From assembly GCA_018399715.1 (NCBI GenBank), contig JAGYNR010000007.1, positions 1 to 43,306 of the forward strand: a DNA stretch of 43,306 nucleotides, in the 5' to 3' direction. Each line of letters begins with the position of its first letter. Within the stretch, counting starts at the first letter, position 1. Origin of the DNA: Desulfobacterales bacterium. GTDB taxonomy: Bacteria > Desulfobacterota > Desulfobacteria > Desulfobacterales > SKZT01. Below are positions 1,875-39,231 of this stretch, piece after piece. The notes beneath the pieces are model-generated. The model was given only the letters and a program-made list of their open reading frames with translations. It was not told the origin of the DNA and did not search any database. The position numbers and the translations under genes were made by a program.

Positions 1875-3044
1875 TTATTGCATGATCTTTCGGATTCCCC
1901 GCACAGCTTGGTTGATTCTCTGGTTGTTTTCGATAAGAGCGAATCGAACATAGTCGTCTCCATATTCTCCAAATCCCAGACCGGGAGATACAGCCACCTG
2001 GGCCTCACGGATAAGAAATTTTGAGAATTCAACAGAGCCCATATGCCGGAAAGATTCGGGAATTTTGCCCCACACGAACATGGTTGCTTTGGGAGTAGGA
2101 ATACTCCAGCCGATTCGTTTAAGGCCGGTAATCAAGGTATCCCGCCTGCTTTGGTAGATTCTGCAAATTTCTTCGACACAATCCTGAGGTCCATTTAATG
2201 CGATGATCGAGGCAATCTGGATCGGCTGAAAAATTCCGTAATCCAGATAACTTTTAATGCGGCTTAAAGCAAAAATAGTTTCCTTGTTTCCCACACAAAA
2301 TCCTACCCGCCATCCGGGCATGCTGTAACTTTTTGACAACGAAAAAAACTCTACACCCACCTCTTTGGCGCCATCGGCCTGCAAAAAACTGGGGGCGGTA
2401 TATCCATCGAAGGTAAGGTCTGCGTAGGCAAAATCGTGAATAACTAAAATGTCATGCTCTCTGGCAAAGTCAACAATTTTTTGAAAAAAGTCAGCGTCTG
2501 TCACTTCTGTTGTTGGATTGTGAGGATAGGATATGATTAATATTTTGGGACGAGGCCATGTCTGCCGCGTAGCAGAAATCAGATTTTCAAAAAAATCATG
2601 CTCGGGCCCCATGGGGATCCCCCTAACATCACCCCCGGAAATAATGGCTGAATAAGGATGAATGGGATACGTCGGATTGGGCGTCAACACCACATCACCC
2701 GGCCTGATAGAAACAAGTACCAGATGGCTCATACCTTCTTTTACCCCGATCGTTACAATCGCTTCGGTTTCCGGATCAATATCAACATCGTACCGTCGTT
2801 TATACCAGTCGGAAATGGCCATCCTCAATTTAGTGATGCCTCTGGATGCAGAGTATCGATGATTATGGGGTTTTTCTGAGGCTTCTACCAGTTTTTCAAC
2901 AATATGGTCAGGAGTAGCCAGATCCGGGTTTCCCATTCCCAGATCAATGATGTCCTGACCAGACCGTCTGGCCTCCATCTTTATGTCATTAACTGTTGCA
3001 AATACATAAGGCGGAAGTCGATCCAGCCTTGAAAATTTTTGCAT
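1875..3044 (-). CDS. Class I/II PLP-dependent aminotransferase (AlaC / aspartate aminotransferase-like)
   Basis: A 389-residue fold-type I aminotransferase. The N-terminus has [13 protein letters not shown] and the signature [16 protein letters not shown]. Later motifs include [10 protein letters not shown] and a PLP-binding lysine in [15 protein letters not shown] (about residue 236). The sequence resembles the AlaC/YfdZ group and LL-diaminopimelate aminotransferases, so the amino donor and acceptor (alanine, glutamate, aspartate or diaminopimelate) cannot be settled by eye. It is first in a minus-strand run with hom and thrH (about 110 bp to hom), which favours a role near aspartate-family amino acids. 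A ribosome binding site (AGAGG) is 7 bases before the ATG. Confidence in fold and cofactor is very high, in substrate low. Confidence 0.9.
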
Positions 3045-3151
3045 ATCAACCTCTTAATCTAAAAAATTTTGTTAACAATAATATCAAAGATATTTTATTA
3101 TTAAGCTGTTATTCAATACAATAGGAAAAAACAGATGTCAAAAAAATTGTT

Positions 3152-19700: not shown

Positions 19701-19741
19701 GGAACGTGGCAAGAAATAATTTTATTTTTTTGCCACGTTCC
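19701..19741. repeat. 41-bp near-perfect palindrome
   Basis: GGAACGTGGCAA (19701-19712) and TTGCCACGTTCC (19730-19741) are perfect complements, and the A-rich and T-rich inner parts extend the pairing with one bulge almost to the centre. As RNA this is a very stable hairpin about 65 bases before the receiver gene. It could terminate transcription from the HAD gene in either direction, or be a second type of dispersed palindrome. No other copy is visible in this window. Confidence 0.6.
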
Positions 19742-23725: not shown

Positions 23726-25333
23726 ATGGAACATGAACATAAGCCTGAAGAATCACTTTCCGAAAATCGATTCAACAGTCCGGTCCAGGAGTTGTCAATC
23801 CTTCTGGAATCTCTTCCGATTGTCGCTTACACTTGCAGAGCTACGGGTAATTTTCAAATTACTTATATAAGCCAGTCTGTAACGGAGATGACCGGCTATT
23901 CTCCGGATGAGTTCATTGATGACCCTACCTTTTGGTCTAAATGTATTCACGAAGATGATCGAAAAAAGTTTCTTGATGACCTAAAAGCTTCGACAACCCA
24001 TGAACACTTTCAGACCGAGTACCGGTTTCGTATAGCAGACGGTACCTATAAATGGTTTTCTGACAACCGAAGGTCTGTAAAAAGATCTGATGAAAAGGTC
24101 AATCACATTGTTGGTGCCTGGCAGAATATTACTGAAGAAATCAAATTGCGACAGGAATCCGACTACCGGCTCCAGCAAATTATCCAGGCTGACAAACTAG
24201 CCTCTCTCGGTGAAGTTGTTGCTGGAGTTGCCCATGAAATCAATAATCCTAACAGCTTCATTACTTATAATATTCCCATCCTGGAGGAAACCTGGAAAAT
24301 TTTCGAGCCGATTTTAAAAAAATTTGGCCAGAAGCATCCTTCCTGGCAAAACAGCAATATGACAATCACTGAGTTATGCCAGGACATGAATGAAATTATC
24401 GAAGCTATCAAAATTGGGTCTGGGCGAATTACCAAGGTTGTCGAAAACTTAAAAGAATTTGCACGTGTCGATGAAAGTGCACATTTCAAACCTGTCCTGA
24501 TAAACGAGGTAGTGGAAAAGACACTCGTGATTGTGGGCGGCCAACTGCGCAAATCTGCGTTGGACATTCAGGTTAATCTGGCAGAGGGACTTCCACTGAT
24601 CAACGGACATTTTCAAAAATTGGAACAGGTTGTTACCAACATTCTGGTAAATGCCGCCCAGGCAATTCCCGACCGGGAAAATGGAAAAATCTCTATCACT
24701 ACCAGGTTCTTGCAGAGACTTGATTGTATATTAGTGGAAATCATTGATAACGGTGCCGGGATGAAATCTGAGGTCATGGAACGGATTTTTGAGCCATTTT
24801 TCACCCAACGCCGCAATACCGGCGGGACAGGACTGGGACTTTCCGTATCATATGGACTGATCAAAGAACATCATGGGAAAATAGGGGTTCACTCCAAACC
24901 GGGTATCGGCAGCCGCTTTACTATGTTTCTCCCGGTCAAAAATGAGATTAAAACTGAAATCCGGCCGTCGATTCTTTGTGTCGATGATGATCTCATCATG
25001 CTGGATATGCTTAAAGCGTTGTTCATTGAAGTTAAAGACATAAATTTTGAAAGCACCAGCAATCCGGAAAGTGTTGTGGCTTATCTGGAAGAACATCCAG
25101 AAGTCGATATTGTCCTTTCGGATATCATGATGCCGGGTATTAACGGGTGGGTCTTGCTGAAAAAAATCAAAACCAGGTTCCCTCTTATTTCCGTCATTTT
25201 ATACTCGGGAAACTCAACTATTTTAAAAGATATCCCGCCTGATATTTCAAAACCGGACTTTCTCCTGGAAAAACCCTTTGAAATCAAAGAACTTCTTAAT
25301 ATTATATATTCTATCGACAGACAGCGATTATGA
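23726..25333 (+). CDS. PAS-domain hybrid sensor histidine kinase
   Basis: A 535-residue soluble kinase without membrane segments. A PAS domain of the PAS_3 style covers about residues 25-145 (ITYISQSVTEMTGYSPDEFI, YKWFSDNRR). The phosphoacceptor helix has His170 in GVAHEINNPNSF. The ATPase domain (about 265-405) has the N box NILVNAAQAI, DNGAGM, and GGTGLGLS. A C-terminal receiver (about 412-530) has LCVDDDL and Asp in IVLSDIMMPG. The GVAHEINNP signature is typical of NtrB-like kinases that serve sigma-54 activators. The stop overlaps the activator gene by 4 bp (ATGA), so the two are almost certainly a pair. The ligand sensed by the PAS domain is unknown. Confidence 0.93.
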   Translation: MEHEHKPEESLSENRFNSPVQELSILLESLPIVAYTCRATGNFQITYISQSVTEMTGYSPDEFIDDPTFWSKCIHEDDRKKFLDDLKASTTHEHFQTEYRFRIADGTYKWFSDNRRSVKRSDEKVNHIVGAWQNITEEIKLRQESDYRLQQIIQADKLASLGEVVAGVAHEINNPNSFITYNIPILEETWKIFEPILKKFGQKHPSWQNSNMTITELCQDMNEIIEAIKIGSGRITKVVENLKEFARVDESAHFKPVLINEVVEKTLVIVGGQLRKSALDIQVNLAEGLPLINGHFQKLEQVVTNILVNAAQAIPDRENGKISITTRFLQRLDCILVEIIDNGAGMKSEVMERIFEPFFTQRRNTGGTGLGLSVSYGLIKEHHGKIGVHSKPGIGSRFTMFLPVKNEIKTEIRPSILCVDDDLIMLDMLKALFIEVKDINFESTSNPESVVAYLEEHPEVDIVLSDIMMPGINGWVLLKKIKTRFPLISVILYSGNSTILKDIPPDISKPDFLLEKPFEIKELLNIIYSIDRQRL

Positions 25334-26700
25334 AGATCCTTATCGTTGATGACGAACAACTCGTCCTGACCTCTATTAAAAGAATATTTAAGCGAAAAGG
25401 GTATCAGCAGGTAGATATATGCAATAATGGGGAAAAGGCCATTGAACTCATCAAAACCAACGATTACGATATTGTTCTGTTAGACCTTCTGATGCCCGGG
25501 ATAGACGGAATTCAAGTACTGGAAAAATCAAAGCCGTTCAAACCCGAAACCGAATTTATTATCCTCACAGCAGTCGATGATGTCTCAAGTGCTGTGAAAA
25601 CTATACGTCTCGGCGCCTATGATTATCTTGTAAAAACAACGGATCCTCAGCGGTTGATTCTCACCACTGAAAGAGCCTACGAACACAAAGGATTACTGGC
25701 AGGACTTGCAGGAGCCCAGGGCCGAAAGATAAAAAAAGTTCCCAAAATTTTTGAAAGCATCATTACCCGGTCTCCCCGAATGCTTGAATTGCTATCGTTT
25801 GCCCAGATTATGGCCAAGGGCGGAAATCCGGTTCTTATCACCGGTGAATCCGGGACTGGCAAGGAACTTCTCTCCAGAGGCATCCACAAGGGCGGCCCTT
25901 TTCCTAAAGGCCCTTTTGTACCTGTAAATGTTGCATCAATTCCTGAGTCTTTATTTGAAAGTCAATTTTTCGGACATCTTAAGGGGGCTTTCACCGGTGC
26001 TCAGGCAGATTATCCGGGTTTTTTCCGCCAGGCAAACGGCGGAACTTTATTTTTGGATGAAATCGGAGAGCTTCCATTTAATCTTCAAGCTAAACTTTTG
26101 AGGGTACTGGAAGAAAAAACGGTTACACCCATCGGAGAAACCAAATCCATTCCGGTAGATTTTCGCATTGTTTCTGCCACCAATCAGGACCTGGACATCG
26201 CTTGCCAGAAAGGTAAATTCCGTCTCGACCTGATGTATCGGCTTAAATCTGCAACTATCCACCTGCCGCCGCTTAGGGAACGTAGAGAAGATATCCAGCT
26301 TCTGGCTGAATACTTTCTTGAAAAAGCGTGCAACCGCCATGACAAACACATAAAAGGATTCAGTTCAGAAGCTATGGCGATTTTGCGTGGCAGGGAGTTT
26401 CCCGGCAATATCCGGGAACTCGCTCAGTTGGTAGAAACATCGGTATTGTTAACAGAAACTGATTTCGTTCTTCCCCAGGCCCTCGGAGAAACCTTCATCC
26501 CTGTTACCAGCACCTTTGCCCGACGGTTATGTACTTTAAAAGAGGATTCCCTGGCTCATGTCGCTTATGTTTTAACACAAACCCAGGGAAATCGTCAAAA
26601 AACAGCAGAAATTCTTGGCATTACAATCCGTCAGATTCAGCGGAAGATTGCACTGATGAAAAAAGATGATAAATGGAAAAAAATCATAAATGACATTTAG
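25330..26700 (+). CDS. NtrC-family sigma-54-dependent response regulator
   Basis: A 456-residue activator. The receiver domain (about 1-120) has Asp52 in IVLLDLLMPGIDG. The AAA+ domain (about 145-385) has Walker A GESGTGKE, the sigma-54 contact loop GAFTGA, Walker B TLFLDEIGELP, and a sensor/arginine finger region in VSATNQD and RLKSATIHLPPLRER. A Fis-type helix-turn-helix at the end reads QKTAEILGITIRQIQRKI. The intact GAFTGA means it can open sigma-54 promoters. Such a promoter lies 207 bp past its stop, with a symmetric site directly after the stop codon. It is probably phosphorylated by the kinase encoded just upstream and is the likely activator of the chemosensory operon. Confidence 0.95.
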   Translation: MKILIVDDEQLVLTSIKRIFKRKGYQQVDICNNGEKAIELIKTNDYDIVLLDLLMPGIDGIQVLEKSKPFKPETEFIILTAVDDVSSAVKTIRLGAYDYLVKTTDPQRLILTTERAYEHKGLLAGLAGAQGRKIKKVPKIFESIITRSPRMLELLSFAQIMAKGGNPVLITGESGTGKELLSRGIHKGGPFPKGPFVPVNVASIPESLFESQFFGHLKGAFTGAQADYPGFFRQANGGTLFLDEIGELPFNLQAKLLRVLEEKTVTPIGETKSIPVDFRIVSATNQDLDIACQKGKFRLDLMYRLKSATIHLPPLRERREDIQLLAEYFLEKACNRHDKHIKGFSSEAMAILRGREFPGNIRELAQLVETSVLLTETDFVLPQALGETFIPVTSTFARRLCTLKEDSLAHVAYVLTQTQGNRQKTAEILGITIRQIQRKIALMKKDDKWKKIINDI

Positions 26701-26729
26701 GTCGTCATGGACGACAAAAAAGTCGTCCA
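26701..26729. promoter_or_regulatory. Candidate upstream activator site (enhancer) for the NtrC-type regulator
   Basis: Three half-sites are packed into 29 bp: GTCGTC (26701-26706), TGGACGAC (26708-26715) and GTCGTCCA (26722-26729). The last two are perfect 8-bp inverted repeats around AAAAAA, and the first two are inverted around ATG. The site begins immediately after the regulator stop and ends about 180 bp before the -24/-12 promoter, which is the usual enhancer distance. No U-tract follows, so a terminator is less likely. Confidence 0.6.
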
Positions 26730-26905
26730 CTTAAATCCTGTTTAATATTAATTTGTTTTGTTGGTTTCCCGTTTTAGAATTTTGTTCTGACAACATTTAA
26801 AGATGTCATTTATGTCATAGCTCATCACAACTTATAGCAAGTCTTTCCAAATCTAAGAAACTATAAATTCAGATACTTACAATTTAAAATGTTTTTTTGT
26901 TTTTT

Positions 26906-26921
26906 TGGCCCATCCCTTGCT
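26906..26921 (+). promoter_or_regulatory. Sigma-54 (-24/-12) promoter of the chemosensory operon
   Basis: TGGCCCATCCCTTGCT has GG at 26907-26908 and GC at 26919-26920 with exactly ten bases between, and TTGCT matches the -12 box. The -24 box TGGCCC differs from TGGCAC at one base. Transcription would start near 26932, about 285 bases before the first gene. A candidate activator site lies 180 bp upstream and the activator gene ends just before that. Confidence 0.7.
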
Positions 26922-26939
26922 AAATAACAGGATCAGATG

Positions 26940-27081
26940 ACGGGAAAAAACACTCTCTCCCTTCTTATCCCGTATCTAACTTGTTTCAAGGCTGGGCGCT
27001 TTTCCTCCCACTGGGAAAACCTCCCTCCCTTATAATCGAATATAAGCCCCGGCTTTGAAACAACATCGACATTAGGGAGGG
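26940..27081 (+). ncRNA. Structured leader with 16-bp stem and possible pseudoknot
   Basis: The roughly 285-base leader has no convincing ORF. ACGGGA (26940-26945) can pair with TCCCGT (26968-26973). TTGTTTCAAGGCTGGG (26981-26996) pairs along all 16 bases with 27048-27063 if two G-U pairs are allowed. Inside that loop CCCTCCCT (27023-27030) is a perfect complement of AGGGAGGG (27074-27081) just outside, an H-type pseudoknot topology. Several further GGA motifs (near 26929, 26943, 27014, 27095, 27116, 27143) could bind a CsrA-type regulator. The rest of the 26730-27217 gap shows nothing else apart from the promoter. Confidence 0.45.
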
Positions 27082-27217
27082 AAATAAATCAAAAAGGAGC
27101 TTTTACATATTCAAAGGGAAGTTCAGTGGTATCCGTAATTTCAGGAAATGCTGTATCATTTCCTTATTTGATTTTTTGGTATTTAACATGCCCTTAGAAG
27201 AAAATGAGAAAACATTT

Positions 27218-27631
27218 ATGACAGAAGATATTCAACGAATTCTCATTGTGGATGACGAACCTGAGTTTGTAAAGACAATTTATCGTCATTTGAGGAGAGA
27301 AGGGTTTGCTCTGTATAGCGCTAATGATGGAAAAATGGCCAAGGAAGAGATACAAAACGCTTTTGCACAAGGGCTTCCGATACAACTGGTCATTACGGAT
27401 GTCCTGATGCCCAGGTTGGATGGAATCGAACTGTTGACATGGATAAAGCAGATACATCCTGAAATTTCCGTTATTGCTGTGTCTGGATTTGCTGACACAT
27501 TATTGGCAGGCAAGCTGATTCGCCCCGAAATGGATGAATATTGTCAGAAACCGTTCACACCTCAAGAGATGATGTTGCTTTTGGAACGAGTTCAGGAAAA
27601 ACGAAGAAATCATGAATTTGATCATGAATAG
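27218..27631 (+). CDS. Single-domain response regulator heading the chemosensory operon
   Basis: A 137-residue receiver: ILIVDDEPEF, phosphoacceptor Asp in LVITDVLMPRLDG, Ser in IAVSGFAD, Lys in YCQKPFTP. A short charged tail (RVQEKRRNHEFDHE) follows and no output domain is present. The frame is open from a TTG at 27176, and an ATG at 27188 also exists. ATG 27218 places the first strand at the normal distance and has a GAG-containing weak ribosome binding site. It is the first gene after the sigma-54 promoter and its structured leader, and it lies 22 bp before the first CheB-like gene. It is a likely phosphoacceptor of the operon's CheA. Confidence 0.85.
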   Translation: MTEDIQRILIVDDEPEFVKTIYRHLRREGFALYSANDGKMAKEEIQNAFAQGLPIQLVITDVLMPRLDGIELLTWIKQIHPEISVIAVSGFADTLLAGKLIRPEMDEYCQKPFTPQEMMLLLERVQEKRRNHEFDHE

Positions 27632-27653
27632 CATACTCAGAGAAGGCACCGAC

Positions 27654-28883
27654 ATGTTGATATTCTGTGAAGAATGTGGGGAGAAAATGGATATCATTTT
27701 AGATCAGAAGAACGCTACGCCCAGACATCTGAGGTGTCCTGGTTGCGGCGAGCTTCTTACCGTCAAAAATAATATACAAACCGCCAGCCTGGAAAGTCCG
27801 GAGGAGAATCTTCCGGATTCGTTGCAATTTGAAAAAGGCAATCAACCCCTTAAGCGCCAAAAGGTTCTGATTGTTGACGATTCGCTGTTGATTCGGCGTG
27901 CAATCCGTCGGATCTTTGAAGGCAACAACAGACTTGAAGTTGTTGGAGAAGCGGCTAACGGTGCCCAAGCTCTGGATTTAATTTCGCAAGTAAATCCGGA
28001 TGTCGTCACCTTAGATGTCAACATGCCAGTTATGGATGGTTTAACGACATTAAAGCACATGATGATAAAAACCCCTAAACCTGCCGTAATGATATCCACG
28101 TTGACCAGGGAAGGTGCTTCTATAACATTTGATGCCCTCAAATACGGTGCTGTTGATTTTATTCCTAAGCCTTCCCAGACCAGCGGTAAAAGTTTGGAAA
28201 AACAGCACGAAACAATTATCCGAAAGGTTTCACTGGCTGCTCGGGTGGAAACAAGGGCTATTCAATATTTACGTTCTGTTGAATGTGAAAAAAAATCAGA
28301 AAATGCTTTACCCGCCAAGAGACTTTTTGCTCTGGGTGCCTCGGAAGGGGGTTACAGTTCATTATTAAAAATCATTCCGCTGCTCAGCCCGGAAATTCGT
28401 ACTGCCTTTCTGGTGATTTTGTATGCAGAGCCTATGTATGTGGATGCGTTTGCCAGATATTTAAATGAACACAGCAGGATAAGCGTTTTAAACGCCAAAA
28501 ACGGGGATTTGATAGAGGGAGGAACCTGTTACCTGTGTTCTGGTGAAGAGTATCTGACCGTTGAAAAGTCCGGCAGTTCCTATCGTTTACAGGTAAGTCC
28601 TAATCCGTTTCCCAACCGTCGTGGGACCATCAACATGCTCATGATGTCCGTAGCGGAAACGTTAACGGACAAATCGGGGGGCGCTATATTATCGGGATCC
28701 GGATTTGATGGACTGGAGGGCCTGCGGGAAATCCTGCGGCAGGGAGGTACCGGTATTGTGCAGCATCCCAAAACCTGCCTTTGCAAAGAAATGCCGGTTT
28801 TTGTCTTAAACAATCTGAGCATAAATAATATCATACCCGACAGAGACATTGCGGACAAAATTAATGAAATGGATATACATTAA
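27654..28883 (+). CDS. Zinc ribbon-receiver-CheB-like protein, catalytic His missing
   Basis: A 409-residue protein in three parts. Residues 1-45 are a zinc ribbon (CEECGEKM and LRCPGCGELLTV). Residues ~69-190 are a receiver with KVLIVDDS, Asp in VVTLDVNMPVMDG and Lys in FIPKPS. Residues ~221-405 have the CheB methylesterase fold. Of the Salmonella CheB triad, Ser164 is kept (GASEGG) and Asp286 is kept (SGSGFDG). The QHM block with His190 reads YAE, so the catalytic histidine is Ala. It is probably not an active methylesterase but could dock on receptors or CheA in a phosphorylation-dependent way. The frame is open from 27612, but ATG 27654 has AGAAGG upstream and starts the zinc ribbon. Confidence 0.82.
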   Translation: MLIFCEECGEKMDIILDQKNATPRHLRCPGCGELLTVKNNIQTASLESPEENLPDSLQFEKGNQPLKRQKVLIVDDSLLIRRAIRRIFEGNNRLEVVGEAANGAQALDLISQVNPDVVTLDVNMPVMDGLTTLKHMMIKTPKPAVMISTLTREGASITFDALKYGAVDFIPKPSQTSGKSLEKQHETIIRKVSLAARVETRAIQYLRSVECEKKSENALPAKRLFALGASEGGYSSLLKIIPLLSPEIRTAFLVILYAEPMYVDAFARYLNEHSRISVLNAKNGDLIEGGTCYLCSGEEYLTVEKSGSSYRLQVSPNPFPNRRGTINMLMMSVAETLTDKSGGAILSGSGFDGLEGLREILRQGGTGIVQHPKTCLCKEMPVFVLNNLSINNIIPDRDIADKINEMDIH

Positions 28884-28939
28884 ATGGATGTTAAAAATAT
28901 TTTGTTTTTCAACTTTTAAGGAATCGGAGGAATATCATA

Positions 28940-31546
28940 ATGTTTAAAAACATGAAGCTCGGAGTAAAATTGCTGATAGTCGGTTGTTTGTTAACAATAC
29001 TGCCGCTTTTGATTGTCGGTGGCGTAGTTCTTTATCAAAACAGCCAGATGCTGAAAGTATCGGATGAGGAAAGTACTAAACTGGCTTACGCAGACTTAGA
29101 TCATATTGCACAAAATATGTGGTCCATTTGCGATACACAGAACGACCTTCAGGAGCAGACCCTTCGCAGCTACCTGAGAATGGCTCAGGAGCTGGTTAAC
29201 AAAGAAGGTGACTTTTCTTTAGGCACTCAAACGATTAGATGGACATGTATGAACCAGTTTTCAAATAATGTTGATCAGGCTGAACTGCCTCAGATGCTGA
29301 TCGGAGGAAAATGGCTCGGCCAGGTCACATCTACGTCCCAAACAGTAGCCATCGTAGATAAGGTACAAAATCTTACCGGAGGTGCTACCTGTACGGTTTT
29401 TCAAAAAATGAACGCGGCAGGAGATATGCTTCGGGTAGCTACCAATGTTTTGAAAGCCAATGGAAACCGCGCCGTTGGAACGTTTATTCCCTACATGAAT
29501 CCGGATGGCAAGCCTAACCCGGTCGTGTCAAGTCTTCTTCAGAGTCAGACATATGTCGGAAGAGCATTTGTTGTCAACAAATGGTATACCACCGCTTATC
29601 ATCCTATCCATAACAAAGATAATCAGGTGATCGGCGCACTTTATGTAGGCATTCCCCAGGAAAGTGTAACAACTCTTCGGGAAGCTATCATCGATACGGA
29701 GGTTGGTAAAACCGGCTATGTTTACGTTTTGGACAGTGAAGGTAACTATGTTATTTCCCAGGACGGAAAACGTGACGGTGAATATATCTGGGAAGCCAGA
29801 GATGAGGACGGAAACCTGTTTATTCAGGAAATTATCAGCAAGGCATTGTCATCGGGAAAACAGGAAATTACCGAGGTTCGCTACCCCTGGAAAAACCCCG
29901 GAGATCCTGCTGCCCGTATGAAAGTGGCCAGAATTATTTATTTCGAACCGTGGGATTGGGTGATTGGTGTTGGTTCATACCTGGAAGAGTTTTATGACAG
30001 TACCAACCGGATGAAAGACTTGAGCAACAGAGGTAACCTTATCTTTTTAGGAATTATGGCAGTATCCCTGCTGGCCGCCGTTGTGATCTGGCTGTTTACA
30101 TCGAGAACAATTGCCAACCCGATTGTTAATATTGCTGATACGGTCAGAAAAATTGCATCTGAACGGGATCTGACCCTTTCAGTGCCGGTAGAAAGCCGTG
30201 ATGAAGTCGGAAACATGGCCGCAGAATTTAACAATATGGTACAACAACTAAGGGAATCTTTTGTGCTGGTCAATACATCGGCAGAAAAGGTTGAAAGTCA
30301 TGCAAGTGAGGTTTCCCAGCGGGCAACATCCAACAGATCCAGAGCTGAAAACGAAGAAAAACGAACCGGTGAGGTACAGAAAACCGTCTCCGAAATGGGG
30401 TTGACAGCCGGTGAGGTAGCACAGCTATCCCAGGCACAGAGCGAGTCAGCCACCAATTCTAATAAAAGTATTCAGGAACTTGTTAAATCAATGTCGAGTA
30501 TCGCTGAATCCAGCCGGGCTCAGATCGATGAAGCCAACAGGGCAACGGAGCGTGTTGAGGCTATGGGTGAAACCGGCGCTAAGGTTGTGGCAACCGCCAG
30601 AAACCAGGGTGTTGAGGTTTCCCGGGTTACAGAAGCTATGAATGAAATTGCAAAGGCTGTTGATGAAATGACCAAGGTAGCCAAACAGTCTACAGATCAT
30701 GGTAAGGAAGTGCTGGCGGCTGCCCAGGAGGGTGCTAATTCGGTTAACGCCACAGTTGAAGGTATGAAAGCCATTGCAGAATCCTCAGATCAGATATCGG
30801 AAATTATTTCTGTAATCACCGAAATCGCAGAGCAAACAAACCTGTTGGCCCTGAACGCAGCCATTGAGGCAGCTCGTGCCGGTTCTCACGGAAAGGGTTT
30901 TGCAGTCGTTGCAGATGAAGTTGGTAAGCTGGCACAACGTTCATCTGAGGCAGCTAAAGAGATTACACAGCTTATCAAAGACTCTACGAACAGAGTTAAT
31001 GAGGGAACCAAGTTAACCGATCAATCCCAGATGGCTTTGATGAAAATCACCGAAGGCGGTAAAGTGAACATGGATGCTATTGAGGAGATTTCCCAAACGG
31101 CCAATAGTCTGGCTGATGGTACCCAGCAGGTTCATGAGATGATGAAAAGTTTGAACGCTCTTGCACAGGAAATTGAAAGCATGGCAGGTCAGCAGGGTGC
31201 CCGGCGTGAGGATGCTCAAAAGGCACTGGCAGCCCTGGTGGAAAAATCAGGAGTTATTGCCAAGCTGGTTGAAGAGGCACAACGTGTATCTAACATGGTT
31301 AGCCAGCAGATGGATGACATTGTTGAACGTACCGAAAACATGAAGGGTCTTACTGACCTTCAGGCCGGACGATCCAAGAACCTGGTACAATTAAGTAATG
31401 AATCTGCCGAAGCATCTAAAATGACGGTGGAAGGTGCCGGACAGGTTGTGGGCATTACCGGGGAACTTCAGGAGCTTTCATCAGTCCTTACCAATCAGGT
31501 TGCCCAGTTCAAGGTTAATGAACAAAAAGCCGGGCAAACCGGTTAA
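28940..31546 (+). CDS. Methyl-accepting chemotaxis protein with periplasmic Cache sensor
   Basis: An 868-residue inner-membrane chemoreceptor. A membrane segment (about 8-32) leads into a large periplasmic Cache-type region (about 35-355; [18 protein letters not shown] and [13 protein letters not shown] mark the second subdomain). The second membrane segment is about 365-387, followed by a HAMP domain (about 388-445) and a long coiled-coil signalling domain. The hairpin tip [19 protein letters not shown] (about residue 630) is fully conserved, so it should bind CheW and CheA. The C-terminus ends NEQKAGQTG, without the aromatic pentapeptide that tethers CheR. GGAGG precedes the ATG. It is the only receptor gene in the operon, so the sensed compound, probably a small organic solute, should define what the system responds to. 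Confidence 0.96.
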
Positions 31547-31583
31547 TAACGGGCATAGATTCTGTCACAACGACAATAAACGG

Positions 31584-31623
31584 GCAAGACGGCTATCATT
31601 GAACCATATTATCGCCGTCTTGC
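31584..31623 (+). promoter_or_regulatory. Intercistronic hairpin between the receptor and CheW genes
   Basis: GCAAGACGGC (31584-31593) and GCCGTCTTGC (31614-31623) form a perfect 10-bp GC-rich stem with a 20-base loop. No U-tract follows, so it is unlikely to be a full terminator. It could stabilise the receptor mRNA 3' end or cause partial attenuation, lowering expression of the downstream genes relative to the receptor. Confidence 0.5.
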
Positions 31624-31650
31624 TTATGGATAAAAAAGGGGATTAAAAAA

Positions 31651-32166
31651 ATGCAACAGGAAGCCTACACTAGGGAGACAGAACAGGTAGAGAAAGAACA
31701 GCTCATTCAGCTGGTGGGCTTTATGATCGGGAAAGAATATTTCGGTGTCGATATTCTTATGGTGCAGGAAATCATCCGATCAACGCCTATCACGGCTGTT
31801 CCCAACTCCCCGGATTTCATTGAGGGAGTAATCAATCTTCGCGGCAGCATTATACCCGTCATCGATCTTCGTAAACGTCTCAATTTACTAAAAATCAAGG
31901 ATAAAGAAAACAAAGAGAAAGAGGATATCTGGATTATCATTCTTGATGTAGAAGGCCGAACTACCGGTTTTATCGTAGACATGGTTACCGAGGTGTTAAA
32001 AATTCAAGAGGATTCTATTGAATCTCCTCCGGAGATCGTATCGGCTGGATTGAAAAGCCAATATATTCGAGGTGTATGTAAAATCGATAAACGGCTTTTG
32101 ATTTTGCTTGATTTCAACCGTATTCTGCTTCTGGATGAAATCAAAAAGCTTAAAGACGTCGATTAA
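31651..32166 (+). CDS. cheW: Chemotaxis adaptor CheW
   Basis: A 171-residue CheW-fold coupling protein linking the receptor tip to CheA. Family motifs include LVGFMIGKEYFGVDILMVQEI, TAVPNSPDFIEGVINLRG, IPVIDLRKRL and IIILDVEGRTTGFIVD, with the closing FNRIL. An insertion of charged residues (IKDKENKEKED, about 83-93) enlarges one loop relative to E. coli CheW. AGGGG precedes the ATG. It lies downstream of the receptor gene behind a strong hairpin and 22 bp before a CheY-like gene. Confidence 0.95.
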   Translation: MQQEAYTRETEQVEKEQLIQLVGFMIGKEYFGVDILMVQEIIRSTPITAVPNSPDFIEGVINLRGSIIPVIDLRKRLNLLKIKDKENKEKEDIWIIILDVEGRTTGFIVDMVTEVLKIQEDSIESPPEIVSAGLKSQYIRGVCKIDKRLLILLDFNRILLLDEIKKLKDVD

Positions 32167-32188
32167 AATTAATAAGGAATTTAAGAAG

Positions 32189-32533
32189 ATGGGCAAACGC
32201 ATTTTAATTGTTGATGACTCATCCATTATGAGAAAGATGATTACAAAAACCCTGAAAGCAGGGGGACACACTATTGTTGGAGAAGCAAAAAACGGAAAAG
32301 AGGCCGTAGCTCTTTATAAAGAATTGAAACCAGACTTGGTTACGATGGACATCACCATGAGAGAAATGGACGGGTTTGCGGCTGCTAAAGAAATTCTCAG
32401 TGATGATCCCGACGCTCAAATTATTTTTGTCTCCAACCTGGATGAAAAAAAATATGGAGAAGATGCAACGCAATTGGGCGCCATGGGCTATGTCAGTAAA
32501 AATAAAACCCAAAAACTGTTGGACCTGATATAA
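32189..32533 (+). CDS. cheY: CheY-like response regulator
   Basis: A 114-residue receiver: ILIVDDSSIMRKMI, phosphoacceptor Asp in VTMDITMREMDG (Arg replaces the usual Pro), the Thr/Ser position occupied by Ser in FVSNLDE, and the conserved Lys in YVSKNKT. It is on the short side for CheY, and the C-terminal helix ends abruptly at LLDLI. The frame is open from 32108 inside cheW, but ATG 32189 has AAGGAA upstream and gives the normal N-terminus. Whether it addresses a flagellar motor, type IV pili or something else cannot be told: no motility genes are in the window. Confidence 0.88.
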   Translation: MGKRILIVDDSSIMRKMITKTLKAGGHTIVGEAKNGKEAVALYKELKPDLVTMDITMREMDGFAAAKEILSDDPDAQIIFVSNLDEKKYGEDATQLGAMGYVSKNKTQKLLDLI

Positions 32534-32630
32534 GTTGGCCTTTGTAAAAACCTTAGAAAGAATTAACAAAATTATTTTTGATTGTAATGCTTTCTGCCCC
32601 GATTACGAACAACATGTCTGGAGCATGTGA

Positions 32631-33323
32631 ATGAGCTGTAATATCAAATTGAAAAATCTATCCTTTCAAAAAGTAATCTGGGGATGTTTTATACTTTTTT
32701 TTCTCGCCACTGTTATGGTTATTATATTCATAACATACGAATTGGAAGAAACGTCATTAAGGCAACAATTGCTTGACAAATCATCGGGATCTGTATCCTC
32801 TCCTGCATCGAATACCGATCTTCAGGATCATGTACTGGAATATTTTCGAAAACTCAAACATCGTATCTTTTGGGCTTTGGGAATATTGTTTCTCGGTACT
32901 GCCGTGTTATTTTTGTTAACGGTTCGCACCATTACCAACCGCCTTGAAAAGGTTATCCAGGGCACCCGTAAAATATCTCTGGGACAATTAGCGGTTTTCA
33001 TCCCGGTTCAACCTCATGATGAAATCGGAAAAATCGGCGAAATGATTAATGATATAGCGGCAAACTTTCAGGAAATTTTTCTGAGTCTTTGGAATCACAC
33101 AGAAAGCTGTATGTATACCCTGGAACAACTACGAAATCATTTTCAAATGTCCCCAAAGGTTCCGGATAAACTGGAGGATACCCTGGAACATTTAGATACT
33201 GACCTGGAAGGAATGCAAACCATCATTAAAAGTTTCGAATTTTATGATATTTGTTTAGAAAACGGAAAGATAATGGCTCTTGAAAAAACTGAAAAGAAGC
33301 CATCTGCAGCAGTTAACAAATGA
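32631..33323 (+). CDS. Membrane protein with HAMP domain only
   Basis: A 230-residue inner-membrane protein. Two membrane segments (about 15-35 and 81-101) enclose a ~45-residue periplasmic loop too small for a standard sensor domain. A HAMP domain follows (about 102-155; RTITNRLEKVIQGTRKISLGQL and DEIGKIGEMIND). The C-terminal 75 residues are predicted helical (LEQLRNHF, LEDTLEHLDTDLEGM), with no kinase, receptor or cyclase domain. It resembles a receptor with its signalling hairpin removed. GGAG precedes the ATG. Its place between cheY and cheA suggests a structural or modulatory partner of the array. No named family is recognised. Confidence 0.7.
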   Translation: MSCNIKLKNLSFQKVIWGCFILFFLATVMVIIFITYELEETSLRQQLLDKSSGSVSSPASNTDLQDHVLEYFRKLKHRIFWALGILFLGTAVLFLLTVRTITNRLEKVIQGTRKISLGQLAVFIPVQPHDEIGKIGEMINDIAANFQEIFLSLWNHTESCMYTLEQLRNHFQMSPKVPDKLEDTLEHLDTDLEGMQTIIKSFEFYDICLENGKIMALEKTEKKPSAAVNK

Positions 33324-33412
33324 AATTTTCTGCTGATTCAAAAAAGAATAACCTTTTGATTTCATATAACTTACAGTGGGAAAGTGAACGGTAACTTGAG
33401 AGGAGAAACACC

Positions 33413-36325
33413 ATGATCGACTATTCAATGCTTCAGGAATTTATCACTGAGGCTGGAGAACATCTGGATGAAATGGAAAGCGATCTTCTTCAATTGGAAG
33501 TGGATCCTGAAAATCGGGATATTCTGAATGATATTTTTAGAGAAACGCATTCCGTTAAAGGAGCTGCTGAATATGTCGGGCTGGAAAAGATCGCCACGCT
33601 TTCCCACCACCTGGAGAATTTGTTGGAGATTCTCCGGCAGGGAAAGATTTCGGTCACCCACAACATTATTGATCTTCTTATCAGCGCAAGGGATCGAATG
33701 GTCAGATTAACCGATGAACTGGATCGATTTAATAAAGAAAAGACCGAAATTGAAGATATTCTGAAGCTAATACACGGATATTCGGGCGAGGATCAACTTC
33801 CGGAAGAAAAAGCTGAAAACAGCACATCTGTCGACGATACTGAACCTGAAGCGATAAACCTTGATGATTTGGAACAGGAAATCGATGAAAAAATAGAAAA
33901 TGAAAATTCCAATTCGGATGAAATTTATGAAGAAGATTACGATTCCGAATTATTCGGCATTTATTTACAGCAGCTTGAGGAAATCATCTCTTATATACAA
34001 ACGCAAGCCCTTCAACTTCCTGATGCTGATAATTCTGAAGAAATTCTAGATGATATTGTTAAAAAAATTGAAAGTCTTCGGTCTTCAGCCAATTATATGG
34101 GATATGAATCTCTGGTCAATATTTATAAAAAGTGGATTGACGAAATCAGGGATGTTCAGGAAGGAATTTCTTTGGGTGAATCGGTATCCTTTCATTTCAT
34201 GAAAGATTTTACGGATAAAATTGTATCCAGATTTCCCAAATTAAAAGAAACTTTTTCTGAAAAGACAAAAGAACGCCCTAAGGTTCACGATCATATTTCA
34301 GAAGATACTCAGGCTTTACAAGAAACAATTATTGAAGCAGATTCTACAGAAAATGATGAGGATCTCGATTTCGATGATGTCATTCAAAATGAGTTGGATT
34401 TTTTCGATGACGAACCTGAAGAACGGGAACCGGCAGCCACACAAGAAAAAGATGATATAAATCTGACGCTTGATGATGAACAAAAGCAAGATACAGACAG
34501 CACTTTTGATGAAGGTTCAATACAGAGCGAAAAGCAGGGAATATCCAAAAAAGACGAAGATATTGAAGTAATAGATCTTTCCGAAATGGAACTTCTGATA
34601 GACGATCAAAAGCTTTATGATAAGCTTGATAAAGCTTTTGATTCTACTGCCGAGGGTCTTATGGACCCGGTCAGTGTTAAACTTGATGAGGAACTCTTCT
34701 CCCCTGTTGATGTTACCCATGTTGACCCCCTACCGGATAAATCCTTTTCAGAACCATCTGTTCAAAATCTCGATAAAAGCGGTGAATCGGTTGAAGCGTC
34801 GTTTTTTGAAACACAAACGGACCAGCCTGTTTCTGAAAATCCTGAAATTCTTGAAACAGAAGCAGAAATAACACCAGGCTCAACATCAAGTGAAATTCCC
34901 ATGGAGAAGACAGAAACCGAAGAAGCATCTGAACCTCCTGAAAAAATTATTGAGCATCGGCAAAAATCAGTATTTGGTGAACGGTTGGTCAAACAGACAC
35001 TTCGTGTAGATGCCAAAAAAATTGATTCTTTAATGAATCAGGTTGGAGAGCTGGTCGTCAGCAGGGCTTGGTTTTCCCAACTGTTCAATGAAATGCGGGA
35101 TTTTCAGCAGTATCTTAAGGAAAGCATGAGCCTGGATAAAAAAGAGATGAAACAGGTTCGGGGCCTTACGTTCCGGCTCAGTGAAGCCACTGTTAATCTC
35201 GGAAGGGTAGCGAATGAACTTCAGGAAGGTATTATGAAAGTACGCATGCTTCCCATATCTAATCTGTTTAATCGCTATCCCAGACTTATTCGCGATCTTA
35301 CCAGGGAGACCTCTAAAAAAGTGGAACTGAAAATTAAAGGGGAGGACACCGAGCTAGACAAAATGATCATTGAGCAAATTTCCGACCCGATGGTCCATAT
35401 ACTTCGAAATGCCGTTGACCACGGAATAGAACCGACCGATGAAAGGATTGCAAAAGGAAAACCCGAAACCGGGAATATCATCCTGGAGGCATATCATGAA
35501 AGTAATCATGTCGTGATTGAAATCAAGGATGACGGAAAAGGAATCAATCCGGAAACGATTAAAGAAACGGCACTCCAAAATGGTTTTATATCCCGTGAGG
35601 AAGTAGATCAGATGACACCCAAAGAAATTATTTCACTGATCATGAAGCCTGGTTTTTCCACTGCGGGAAAAGTGACGCATACCTCCGGACGAGGGGTGGG
35701 CATGGATGTTGTCAAAAAGAATGTGGAAAAGCTTAACGGAACTCTCGAAATTGATTCCCGGCTGGGAAAAGAAACCCAATTCCGAATTAAGATTCCATTA
35801 ACTCTTGCTATCATCGCAGCACTCATGGTGCGGGTGGGAAAAGACCTGTTTACTGTTCCCTTAGCGAATGTAGAAGAAACCATCCGGATTTTCTATGAAG
35901 ATATCACCACTATAGAAGGTGTCGAAGTGATCTATCTTCGCAATACAACCTTACCGCTGATTCGACTATCGGAAATCTTTGGAATTTCATCGATGGAGAA
36001 AGATCACAAAAAGGCTTTTGTCGTAGTGGTCAGTACCGGCATGCGTAAAGTCGGCCTGGTGGTTGATTCCCTTATCGGTCAAGAAGAAGTGGTCATTAAA
36101 CCTTTGGTAGATTATCTTCAAGAAAACAGTGGTTTTTCAGGTGCCACCATTTTAGGTGACGGAAGTATTTCTCTTATTTTGGACGTATACGAACTGGTCA
36201 ACTTAACGATTGGCAACAGGCTCCGTCAACTGGGTCTGGGAACTTTTCAAGGCAGTACTTCCCAATTAGGGGACAGTGAAAAACATTCTATCAAGAAAAA
36301 ACTATCAACAAGCACGATTCATTAG
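33413..36325 (+). CDS. cheA: Chemotaxis histidine kinase CheA, large form
   Basis: A 970-residue CheA. Residues 1-110 are the HPt domain, with His46 in RETHSVKGAA. Residues ~172-282 form a second HPt-like helical bundle in which the position of the His reads Glu (IESLRSSANYMGYESL), so it cannot accept phosphate. A long acidic, low-complexity linker (about 285-510) replaces a recognisable P2 domain. The dimerisation helices start near VDAKKIDSLMNQVGELV (about 530). The ATPase domain (about 626-800) has HILRNAVDHGIEP, DDGKGI and TSGRGVGMDVV. The CheW-like domain fills about 802-936. Catalytic motifs are intact. AGGAG precedes the ATG. At least six receivers in the same operon could be its targets. 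Confidence 0.95.
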   Translation: MIDYSMLQEFITEAGEHLDEMESDLLQLEVDPENRDILNDIFRETHSVKGAAEYVGLEKIATLSHHLENLLEILRQGKISVTHNIIDLLISARDRMVRLTDELDRFNKEKTEIEDILKLIHGYSGEDQLPEEKAENSTSVDDTEPEAINLDDLEQEIDEKIENENSNSDEIYEEDYDSELFGIYLQQLEEIISYIQTQALQLPDADNSEEILDDIVKKIESLRSSANYMGYESLVNIYKKWIDEIRDVQEGISLGESVSFHFMKDFTDKIVSRFPKLKETFSEKTKERPKVHDHISEDTQALQETIIEADSTENDEDLDFDDVIQNELDFFDDEPEEREPAATQEKDDINLTLDDEQKQDTDSTFDEGSIQSEKQGISKKDEDIEVIDLSEMELLIDDQKLYDKLDKAFDSTAEGLMDPVSVKLDEELFSPVDVTHVDPLPDKSFSEPSVQNLDKSGESVEASFFETQTDQPVSENPEILETEAEITPGSTSSEIPMEKTETEEASEPPEKIIEHRQKSVFGERLVKQTLRVDAKKIDSLMNQVGELVVSRAWFSQLFNEMRDFQQYLKESMSLDKKEMKQVRGLTFRLSEATVNLGRVANELQEGIMKVRMLPISNLFNRYPRLIRDLTRETSKKVELKIKGEDTELDKMIIEQISDPMVHILRNAVDHGIEPTDERIAKGKPETGNIILEAYHESNHVVIEIKDDGKGINPETIKETALQNGFISREEVDQMTPKEIISLIMKPGFSTAGKVTHTSGRGVGMDVVKKNVEKLNGTLEIDSRLGKETQFRIKIPLTLAIIAALMVRVGKDLFTVPLANVEETIRIFYEDITTIEGVEVIYLRNTTLPLIRLSEIFGISSMEKDHKKAFVVVVSTGMRKVGLVVDSLIGQEEVVIKPLVDYLQENSGFSGATILGDGSISLILDVYELVNLTIGNRLRQLGLGTFQGSTSQLGDSEKHSIKKKLSTSTIH

Positions 36326-36329
36326 TTAC

Positions 36330-38153
36330 ATGGAAAACCATCTTAAAACAGTTCTACTGGTGGATGATGAGCCTTTTTTACTGGATGTTCTTTCGGAATA
36401 TCTGGAAATAGATAAGGATGTCTATACGGTTCTTACCGCAAAAAATGGTTGTCATGCACTTGAAATACTAAGCAGCCATAAGATTTCCCTGGTTGTTTCT
36501 GATATTTATATGCCGAAAATGACAGGGCTTCATTTACTTGGTGAGATAAAAAATAAATATCCCGAAATCCCGGTTATTTTAATGACCGCATATAATGCGC
36601 CCCAAATAAAATCAGAGGCAGAGAAAAGTGGATGCCTGCATTTTATCGAAAAGCCGTTTGAGATGGAAGTAATGCGGAAACTTATTTTGGATCGGATAGG
36701 AAAAAAGAAACAGGGCTTTGTCGGTACACTAAAGAACATCCAGCTCACGGATTTGATCCAGATGTGCTGCCTGTCTCCTATCAGCATGGCTATCCGTGTT
36801 ACACAAGACCCCATGAAAGGAACAATTTTTATTCAAGATGGTGAGATTGTCCACGCAGTTTGTGGTGAAACAACCGGTGAGGAGGCCTTTTATTCGATTT
36901 TAGGATGGAAGCATGGTCAATTTGAAACGTTAGGTTCCGGAATTGTTCCATCGAGAACTATTGAAAAGCCATGGCAGTCCCTTCTCATGGAAGCCGCCAG
37001 AAGAATGGATGAACAGGCAAATGAGAACCAAGTAACCGAACCAGAAGAAACGCATTATGAATCCAATCACAAAACAAGTTCAAAAAAAGCTCCTGTTAAA
37101 GTTCTTATCGTTGATGATTCGGCTATGATGTGCAGGGCTCTTGAAAAAATTATCGGTTCAGATGAATCCATTATGGTCATCGGAAATGCAAAAAATGGGG
37201 AAGAAGCCCTTGAAAAAATCAACCAACTTAAACCAGATCTCATTACGCTTGATGTTAACATGCCGGTTATGGACGGCAGCACAGCACTTAAACACATAAT
37301 GATTCGGAACCCCTGCCCGGTAATCATTATCAGTAATATGGGAAGCCAATCCCAGGCAAACATTTTGGATTTTCTTCGCCTGGGCGCTATCGATTATATT
37401 CGAAAGCCGGCATACACAAAAGATATTAAACTACAGCAAAAGCAACTGGTCGAAATGATTCGAATTGCGTCCAAAGCACGGATAGATAACTTTAAAAGGG
37501 TAAAAAACCCAAAAGTTATCTCCGCCAGAAAAGTACCGCACAGTACCAATTTTCCTTGTGAAAGACTTGTAATTATCAATTCGGGGCCGGGAGGATATGC
37601 CGAGACGATGCGGATTATCCCCATGCTACCCCAACGACTTGATACATCAGTGATCGTTTTTCAAAATATGGCAGCCGAATTGGTGTCTCCGCTTTCATCA
37701 TATTTGAACAAACGAAGTCTTTTGCCGATTCTTCCATTAGATGCCGATACTTCCCAGAAAGGTCCTCCAATGCTCGTTGGTGGCCAATGCTATATCGGTC
37801 ACTACAACCAACGGATAAATTTAAGTCAAAATGATAACACTTTTTTTCTTGAAATTACCAATGACAATCCTGCTGAACCGAAAGAAAAGGGAAATCTTTT
37901 TGATTTATTTCTCAAATCAGTTGTTAAAAATTTCTCAGGAAGGATACAGGTAATCTTGCTTTCCGGTGCAGAGGTAGCTTCAACGAAGGGTCTGGAGAAG
38001 GTAAAGAAACATAAAGGCTGGATCATCAGTCAAAAACCGGATACTTGTATGATCCCATATCCGTTACAAGAAGTTGTCGCCTCCGGTCTGGTGGACAAAG
38101 AGGCAAATCCGACAGAAATCGCTACTCTTATTATGCAGAATATGACACCCTGA
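36330..38153 (+). CDS. Receiver-PATAN-receiver-CheB-like protein, no catalytic triad
   Basis: A 607-residue four-domain protein. Receiver 1 is about 1-125 (Asp in LVVSDIYMPKMTG). A DUF4388/PATAN domain follows at about 128-235 (GTLKNIQLTDLIQMCCLSP, GTIFIQDGEIVHAVCG, AFYSILGWKHGQFE). Receiver 2 is about 252-372 (VLIVDDSAMMC, Asp in ITLDVNMPVMDG). The CheB-like domain is about 410-605. There GASTGG reads NSGPGG, QHM reads QNM, and the LTGMGxDG block reads LSGAEVAS. All three catalytic positions are therefore lost (Ser to Gly, His to Asn, Asp to Ala). It is probably a scaffold or signal integrator. The GTG at 36276 inside cheA has AGGGG nearby and is an alternative start; ATG 36330 gives the standard receiver N-terminus. 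Confidence 0.83.
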   Translation: MENHLKTVLLVDDEPFLLDVLSEYLEIDKDVYTVLTAKNGCHALEILSSHKISLVVSDIYMPKMTGLHLLGEIKNKYPEIPVILMTAYNAPQIKSEAEKSGCLHFIEKPFEMEVMRKLILDRIGKKKQGFVGTLKNIQLTDLIQMCCLSPISMAIRVTQDPMKGTIFIQDGEIVHAVCGETTGEEAFYSILGWKHGQFETLGSGIVPSRTIEKPWQSLLMEAARRMDEQANENQVTEPEETHYESNHKTSSKKAPVKVLIVDDSAMMCRALEKIIGSDESIMVIGNAKNGEEALEKINQLKPDLITLDVNMPVMDGSTALKHIMIRNPCPVIIISNMGSQSQANILDFLRLGAIDYIRKPAYTKDIKLQQKQLVEMIRIASKARIDNFKRVKNPKVISARKVPHSTNFPCERLVIINSGPGGYAETMRIIPMLPQRLDTSVIVFQNMAAELVSPLSSYLNKRSLLPILPLDADTSQKGPPMLVGGQCYIGHYNQRINLSQNDNTFFLEITNDNPAEPKEKGNLFDLFLKSVVKNFSGRIQVILLSGAEVASTKGLEKVKKHKGWIISQKPDTCMIPYPLQEVVASGLVDKEANPTEIATLIMQNMTP

Positions 38154-38193
38154 AATTAGTGGGTTAGAACCTCCTTTCCGGAGCATTAAGATT

Positions 38194-39231
38194 ATGGAAG
38201 ATATTATTAAAATACTTATCGTGGATGATTCGGCCTTTATGCGAAAGGCTGTATCAGAAATTCTTCAGACAGACCCTCAGCTTAGCGTGGTCGGAATGGC
38301 CAAAAATGGTCTCGAAGGCTTGAATATGGCAAAATCTTTATTACCCAATGTCATTATTCTGGATATTGACATGCCGATTATGGACGGGCTTACCGGACTG
38401 AAACATATCATGATCGAATCACCCGTTCCTATTGTAGTTCTTAGCTCCCTGTTTTCCGATGGCGCCATTACTTTCGAGGCCCTCCGCCTGGGCGTAGTTG
38501 ATTTCGTTCCAAAACCATCCGGTGCCATATCCGGAAATATCGGAAAATCCAAGCAACAACTCATTGACAGGGTAAAGCTAGCGCACGCAGTGAACATGAG
38601 TAATATCCGAAGAGTCCGGCTAATGAAATGGAACCCACGGGAACAACTTATTGATATTTATAGGTTCAGGTCTTTGGAGTATATTTTAGCTATCGGTACC
38701 ACCCTGTCCGGGCCGAATACGGTCATACGACTGTTATCCAATCTCTCCCCTATGATTCCGGCATCTGTTGTTGTGGTACAGGAAATATCGCCCAAAATCC
38801 TGAAAGCCTTTGCCAAACAGTTCGATGAACGGGTTCCATGGAAAGTTGAAGCAGCCGAAGATAATATGGTTTTAGAACAAGGAACTTGTTATATCAGTTC
38901 CTATGACAAACTGTTAAGCCTGCAGACAAATAACAATAACGACATCTACCTTAAATATATATCCGGAAATGACAGCCCTCTTGATCTGTTATTTTCTTCC
39001 GCCGCACAAGCGTTTCATCAAAACACCATCGGGGTTTTGTTGACTGGAATCGGAGCCGACGGTACCGATGGATTTGCCAATATTCGTAAAGTATCAGGAA
39101 TTACGATGGCACAGGAAGCCCAAACCTGTGTATATCCTAATCTCACAGATAATGCGATTAAAAGCGGCGTTGTGGATATTGTTTTAGATGAGAACAAACT
39201 TTCAAAAGCGATTGAAACTGTCATAAAATAA
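38194..39231 (+). CDS. Receiver-CheB-like protein, catalytic Ser and His replaced
   Basis: A 345-residue protein with the classical CheB layout: receiver (about 5-125; ILIVDDSAFMRKAV, Asp in IILDIDMPIMDG, Lys in FVPKPS), linker, and methylesterase-like domain (about 165-345). In the latter GASTGG reads GTTLSG (Ser to Thr), QHM reads QEI (His to Glu), while the Asp block LTGIGADG is kept. Hydrolysis of receptor methyl esters is therefore unlikely. It is the third CheB-like paralogue in the operon and the only one with the plain CheB architecture. GGAG lies upstream at a slightly long spacing. It is followed 27 bp later by the ParA-like gene. Confidence 0.83.
   Translation: MEDIIKILIVDDSAFMRKAVSEILQTDPQLSVVGMAKNGLEGLNMAKSLLPNVIILDIDMPIMDGLTGLKHIMIESPVPIVVLSSLFSDGAITFEALRLGVVDFVPKPSGAISGNIGKSKQQLIDRVKLAHAVNMSNIRRVRLMKWNPREQLIDIYRFRSLEYILAIGTTLSGPNTVIRLLSNLSPMIPASVVVVQEISPKILKAFAKQFDERVPWKVEAAEDNMVLEQGTCYISSYDKLLSLQTNNNNDIYLKYISGNDSPLDLLFSSAAQAFHQNTIGVLLTGIGADGTDGFANIRKVSGITMAQEAQTCVYPNLTDNAIKSGVVDIVLDENKLSKAIETVIK

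Follow-up and report, generated by a model that had tools for sequence, protein, structure and literature searches.

In the DNA window analysed here, a 43-kb stretch of a genome that is 77% complete (G000), the region between an NtrC-type regulator gene and a small response-regulator gene holds a conserved, structured RNA of an uncatalogued family. This RNA is probably controlled by sigma-54 and appears to be a small regulatory RNA whose general type is already known. It was present in all three genomes of the family that were examined, namely the window's own genome, G001 (99% complete, contig JAABTQ010000008.1) and G002 (contig SKZT01000046.1), the last two both Desulfobacteraceae bacterium. 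We consider the chances about even that it functions as a sigma-54-controlled small RNA, possibly derived from a leader, with a C-rich loop that acts on G-rich sites of mRNAs. A small RNA is more likely here than a purely cis-acting leader. To our knowledge, the small RNAs of sulfate-reducer-type bacteria have been little studied. The locus offers a clearly delimited candidate. For this RNA an activator, its putative binding sites, a promoter and a functional loop can all be predicted, and it comes from genomes in which no Hfq turned up and CsrA has a patchy distribution. Additionally, the comparison of loci suggests a route to a regulatory RNA, in which a leader is added onto an existing sigma-54 target gene and is later able to stand alone.

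The features of the locus are given below, with positions numbered within the window.

23726 to 25333, + strand: hybrid sensor histidine kinase with PAS-HATPase-receiver architecture, paired with the gene that follows; Pfam PAS_3, HATPase_c and Response_reg.
25330 to 26700, + strand: response regulator of the NtrC type (sigma-54 activator), predicted to activate the promoter of the RNA; Pfam Response_reg, Sigma54_activat and HTH_8.
26690 to 26705, no strand assigned: putative upstream activator palindrome 1, ATGACATTTAGGTCGT, at -216 relative to the start of the promoter; the motif recurs at the matching position in orthologous loci.
26711 to 26726, no strand assigned: putative upstream activator palindrome 2, ACGACAAAAAAGTCGT, at -195; likewise matched in motif and position by orthologous loci.
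26803 to 26818, no strand assigned: putative upstream activator palindrome 3, degenerate, ATGTCATTTATGTCAT, at -103; relaxed here and in G021, with a strict GAC-N6-GTC at -103/-104 in five orthologous loci.
26906 to 26920, + strand: predicted sigma-54 promoter, TGGC-N7-TTGC, TGGCCCATCCCTTGC; assigned from the sequence and from sites at the matching place in G001, G002 and nine further orthologous loci.
26937 to 26975, + strand: 5' hairpin, 26937-26945 with 26968-26975; RNAalifold consensus, eight pairs in all three sequences.
26981 to 27063, + strand: main hairpin, stem of 16 pairs; all three genomes keep the inner 14.
26997 to 27047, + strand: loop of the main hairpin, TTTTCC..CCCAC and CCTCCCTCCC (27020-27029), anti-Shine-Dalgarno-like; alignments A4 and A6.
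27074 to 27082, + strand: AGGGAGGGA, nine pairs with the loop, outside the conserved block.
27143 to 27164, + strand: terminator-like hairpin with a T-rich tail, possible 3' end near 27175; seen in the window only.
27218 to 27631, + strand: small single-domain response regulator; Pfam Response_reg and orthologs, with the start codon chosen by conservation.

The main hairpin was first recognized in a preliminary description of this DNA, and all 16 of the pairs it had drawn between 26981-26996 and 27048-27063 do form, 14 as Watson-Crick pairs and two as G.U pairs. Sliding the 5' arm by one or two bases leaves 5-10 pairs. Among uninterrupted stems of at least 14 pairs with loops of up to 60 nt, this stem ties as the longest in the 43-kb window; its tie partner, at 19701-19741, is a second uninterrupted 16-pair hairpin with a 9-nt loop. 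The leader as a whole (26905-27180) folds more stably than its dinucleotide shuffles, with a z of -2.56 and 3 of 200 shuffles folding as well. The absence of a reading frame had also been described correctly: the + strand of the leader carries no open reading frame of at least 50 aa except one that belongs to the downstream gene as an alternative, longer N terminus.

The conservation of the RNA was followed with covariance models, which were needed because a DNA homology search of 58 genomes, the own genome included, returned the own copy only. Run against 389 genomes of the order, a model of the main hairpin built from the window and G001 (R1) added a single strong match, that of G002 at 67.7 bits. 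A model built from the three sequences (R2) found no other convincing member in the class and phylum samples, which overlap with each other and with the order sample, the sampled genomes being not all distinct. Run with its filters off on 22 sources from the loci of other families, R2 gave no leader match, and weak ones in L097, L068 and L079. Within each family genome the RNA is a single locus, and the other matches either come from the palindrome read on the opposite strand or are weak, as are three in the own genome at E 2.7-4.7. Rfam at the gathering threshold gave no match in the window; the family loci L003 (G001) and L034 (G002), and L032, had sub-threshold matches only, which were dismissed as chance. 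No description of this RNA was found in the literature covered, a coverage that leaves out most subscription papers.

The stem pairing is kept in the related genomes, where its absence would have counted against the preliminary description. All 14 inner pairs of the main stem are retained in the three sequences; one of them differs in both of its bases and three vary through G.U. Slid stem controls drop to 19-67% paired. The covariation is thin, as 175 of 500 shuffles reach its score, a weak control with three sequences and one double change. The 5' hairpin has eight pairs common to all three genomes, and the sequence alignment there is good only between G001 and G002. The loops share TTTTCC..CCCAC-like and C-rich runs (alignments A4 and A6), with z values of 3.1-8.1 for the between-genome loop alignments. 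Between G000 and G001 the RNA block aligns with a z of 10.7, against 1.6 for the upstream spacer and -0.3 for the downstream part.

A promoter had escaped the preliminary description. The string TGGCCCATCCCTTGC at 26906-26920 lies 3' of the stop codon of the NtrC-type regulator gene and fits a sigma-54 site, TGGC-N7-TTGC; by its position, transcription would start near 26931, about 11 nt past the GC. The same TGGC-N7-TTGC pattern stands at the 5' end of the RNA in all three family genomes. Counting the own genome, 13 of the 389 genomes sampled from the order have an ortholog of the regulator (E <= 1e-110), and those of the 12 others are 56-69% identical. A sigma-54-like site lies downstream of the regulator in 11 of these 13 loci, none being accepted in G160 and G193. 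Promoter strings in the other genomes were picked by pattern and by eye, and the fixed palindrome spacing supports these picks. GAC-N6-GTC palindromes lie 5' of the promoter in 11 of the 13 loci, the window included, mostly at fixed distances: about -216 in seven, about -195 in seven and -103/-104 in seven (five strict, two relaxed). The three palindromes of G001 keep their spacing unchanged with a shift of about 77 nt, and two palindromes in G167 have the same 92-nt spacing. In G001 the stretch separating the palindromes from the promoter contains an inverted-repeat element, CCCCTTTGAAAAGGAGG...CCTTTTTCAAAGGGGGG (L003, about 3020-3125). With promoter and palindromes beside the regulator in 11 of the 13 loci, the RNA is very probably turned on by the adjacent NtrC-type regulator, its predicted activator.

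The small response-regulator gene follows in nine of the 13 loci; other genes follow in G059 and G167. From the promoter start to its start codon there are 312 nt in the window and 303 nt in G001, compared with 61-101 nt in six loci elsewhere and 209 nt in G112. Judged by these distances, the promoter in most other genomes is predicted to drive the small response-regulator gene via a short leader. With leaders of 303-312 nt in the family against 61-209 nt elsewhere, the structured RNA looks like an addition, specific to the window's family, to an older circuit. Further 3' of the small response regulator, at 27612-39231, the window holds a chemotaxis cluster. It encodes several CheB-like response regulators and one MCP carrying a Cache_3-Cache_2 domain, along with CheW- and CheA-like genes named from their translations. 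In G001 a DnaJ-like gene follows the small response regulator instead.

The copy in G002 stands alone. No ortholog of the NtrC-type regulator or of the small response regulator was found in this genome at the cut-offs used, and no palindromes lie upstream. The unit of promoter and RNA adjoins a frame-broken kinase relic with the readable piece IHEDDPKKFPDDLYESCCHEKYRTKYRI, which lies at about 1150-1375 of L034 and ends shortly 5' of the sigma-54 promoter of the RNA. The upstream DNA of G001 and G002 is 75% identical over 810 columns, and because of this match the G002 locus can be recognized as the same locus after a deletion, in which the palindromes were lost too. Identity between G001 and G002 is 73% for the RNA, 75% for the flanking gene and 74% for the kinase relic. 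Since the RNA is no better conserved than its flanks or the relic, its conservation in G002 gives no sign of continued selection, and since the palindromes are missing, this copy may be silent. The suggestion, made from the window sequence, that this is a leader with structure or a small RNA of its own has thus gained substance as a two-hairpin RNA at a sigma-54 promoter in three genomes, alone in G002.

We propose that the hybrid kinase and the NtrC-type regulator would bind the GAC-N6-GTC palindromes and activate the promoter at 26906-26920. The first product would be a structured RNA of about 135-245 nt, with the 5' hairpin and the main hairpin bearing the C-rich loop. This RNA precedes the small response-regulator gene, which the promoter would serve in other families, and it may be made as a leader, as a small RNA, or as both, the small RNA presumably being freed by termination or processing. 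In mRNAs, the most likely partners of the open C-rich loop would be Shine-Dalgarno sites or G-rich stretches, and the pairing would need neither Hfq nor CsrA. Translation of the targets would thereby come under the two-component system, as the loop sequence and precedent suggest. Hfq (PF17209) was found in none of 14 genomes, in which the control profiles did match.

Known systems offer such precedents. In Pseudomonas, the NtrC-type regulator CbrB activates the sigma-54-dependent CrcZ gene immediately downstream (PMC8871633). The CbrA/CbrB-CrcZ arrangement resembles the present one in having a sigma-54 RNA gene directly 3' of an NtrC-type regulator gene, with activation predicted here, and the features of the CrcZ-type class were seen, namely a sigma-54 promoter at the RNA 5' end and predicted enhancer sites upstream. 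CrcZ differs in that it acts on the Hfq/Crc complex (PMC8871633), whereas Hfq was not found in the 14 genomes here. In Desulfovibrio vulgaris, the response regulator DVU0679 has as a mapped target Dv_sRNA2, an sRNA directly downstream of its own gene (PMC3333781). The likeness, compared by description, is that of a sulfate-reducer response regulator with an sRNA directly downstream; the difference is that the window RNA precedes a small response-regulator gene. R2 gave no convincing match in the phylum sample, the Desulfovibrio content of which is uncertain.

The loop has precedents of its own. RepG of Helicobacter pylori, transcribed beside an orphan response-regulator gene, pairs the C/U-rich loop of its terminator with a G-rich leader (PMC8295292). 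Compared by description, both are hairpin RNAs with a C-rich or C/U-rich loop next to a response-regulator gene; the promoter of the window RNA differs in being of sigma-54 type. By analogy with RepG, the main hairpin with its C-rich loop may itself be of the terminator type. A T-rich run follows the main stem in G001 and G002 in the style of a terminator; the window is without such a run, and for a terminator one would expect a shorter loop than the roughly 45-50 nt seen here. In mycobacteria, the B11 and 6C sRNAs pair C-rich loops with G-tracts in mRNA leaders (PMC10470900). B11 carries two C-rich loops, as against one in the window RNA. The feature of this class (RepG, 6C, B11), a conserved C-rich loop on a stable hairpin, was seen here. 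6C, going by the title of a paper, reportedly works independently of RNA chaperones. Action in trans through loop pairing is what we infer from these analogies. Duplex energies computed for the loop against 32 start sites of the window carry no weight in this reading. A more far-reaching reading is held tentatively and at somewhat less than even chances: a new Desulfobacteraceae-type sRNA family working without Hfq or CsrA, in which a C-rich 'anti-Shine-Dalgarno' loop came under sigma-54 control by insertion into the leader of a pre-existing two-component target gene and, in one relative, became stand-alone after deletion of the entire signalling cassette.

A purely cis-acting leader is rather unlikely, yet it accounts for several observations. 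In the manner of an attenuator, its hairpins would govern whether transcription runs on into the small response-regulator gene or how that gene is translated, with no trans role, and the loop might pair with downstream G-rich sequence and so switch the fold. The RNA does lie between the promoter and this gene in G000 and G001, and the T-rich run of G001 and G002 and the terminator-like hairpin at 27143-27164 fit attenuation. However, that hairpin is weak, with three G-C pairs, and one such hairpin was found where 0.7 are expected by chance. The complementarity behind the fold switch was located correctly in the preliminary description, with CCCTCCCT at 27023-27030 inside the loop and AGGGAGGG, the sole + strand copy in the window, at 27074-27081. 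It extends to nine pairs (27074-27082), a number that 4% of shuffles of the downstream sequence and 8% of shuffles of the loop reach in the window. In G001 and G002 about half of the shuffles match, which is chance level, and the partner block is unconserved (z -0.3). The proposed 'pseudoknot' is therefore complementarity only, and an H-type pseudoknot leader was rejected because the pairing of loop and downstream sequence is not conserved. Against a cis role, moreover, the RNA persists in G002, where the small response regulator is gone.

It is improbable that the RNA is a functionless spacer or inserted palindrome, a hairpin insertion in the leader of the small response regulator kept by common descent only. 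Its confinement to one family and a divergence between G001 and G002 equal to that of the flanking DNA are what such an insertion would leave. Yet the single locus per genome means that it is not a mobile repeat, the RNA is conserved between G000 and G001 where its flanks are not, and all 14 inner pairs are kept.

A CsrA-sequestering RNA or CsrA-bound leader is very improbable. The seven GGA motifs that had pointed to it are present in 26931-27175, against a base-shuffle expectation of 2.4 (0.45% of shuffles reach seven), and CsrA occurs in 5 of 14 genomes, G002 among them. However, CsrA is missing from G001, at 99% completeness, and was not found in G000, at 77%; ANGGA motifs number 4, 1 and 0 in G000, G001 and G002; and no Rfam match to Csr/Rsm RNAs was obtained. 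A CsrB/RsmZ-type sponge was rejected on the same CsrA and ANGGA results, and a CsrA-bound leader does not hold as a family-wide function. A metabolite riboswitch, the RNA switch of the preliminary description, would suit a structured 5' leader of a regulated gene but is scarcely credible given the lack of an Rfam match, the short lineage range and a conserved loop that is a long, open C-rich stretch with no conserved junction or folded aptamer-like core.

Returning to the searches behind the small RNA candidate, several weak matches were set aside. At E <= 0.1, R1 matched nine of the 389 order genomes, which are the three of the family and G025, G034, G079, G082, G164 and G384 (22-34 bits); these six were discarded for having no sigma-54 site of the scanned pattern 5' of the hairpin. 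A model search of 389 genomes at E <= 0.01 left six, the three of the family and G179, G374 and G387 (26-28 bits; brief inspection). R2 matched two of 395 genomes in the phylum sample, the own genome and G469 (31 bits), the latter with a G-rich hairpin immediately after the end of a gene, which was rejected. A pattern scan of genome contigs gave 18 stretches, two of which are the RNA (G001 and G002); the other 16 and three viral stretches gave at most 25 bits or nothing with R1, or were palindromic- or coding-looking. The G025 and G034 matches are repeat hairpins of the GTTCCCAAGC type. Palindromic repeat hairpins of this type lie at L035 1426-1508 and L036 68-152, in two other genomes of the order, and are repeated within L036; they are chance matches of the model and probably repeat elements in their own right.
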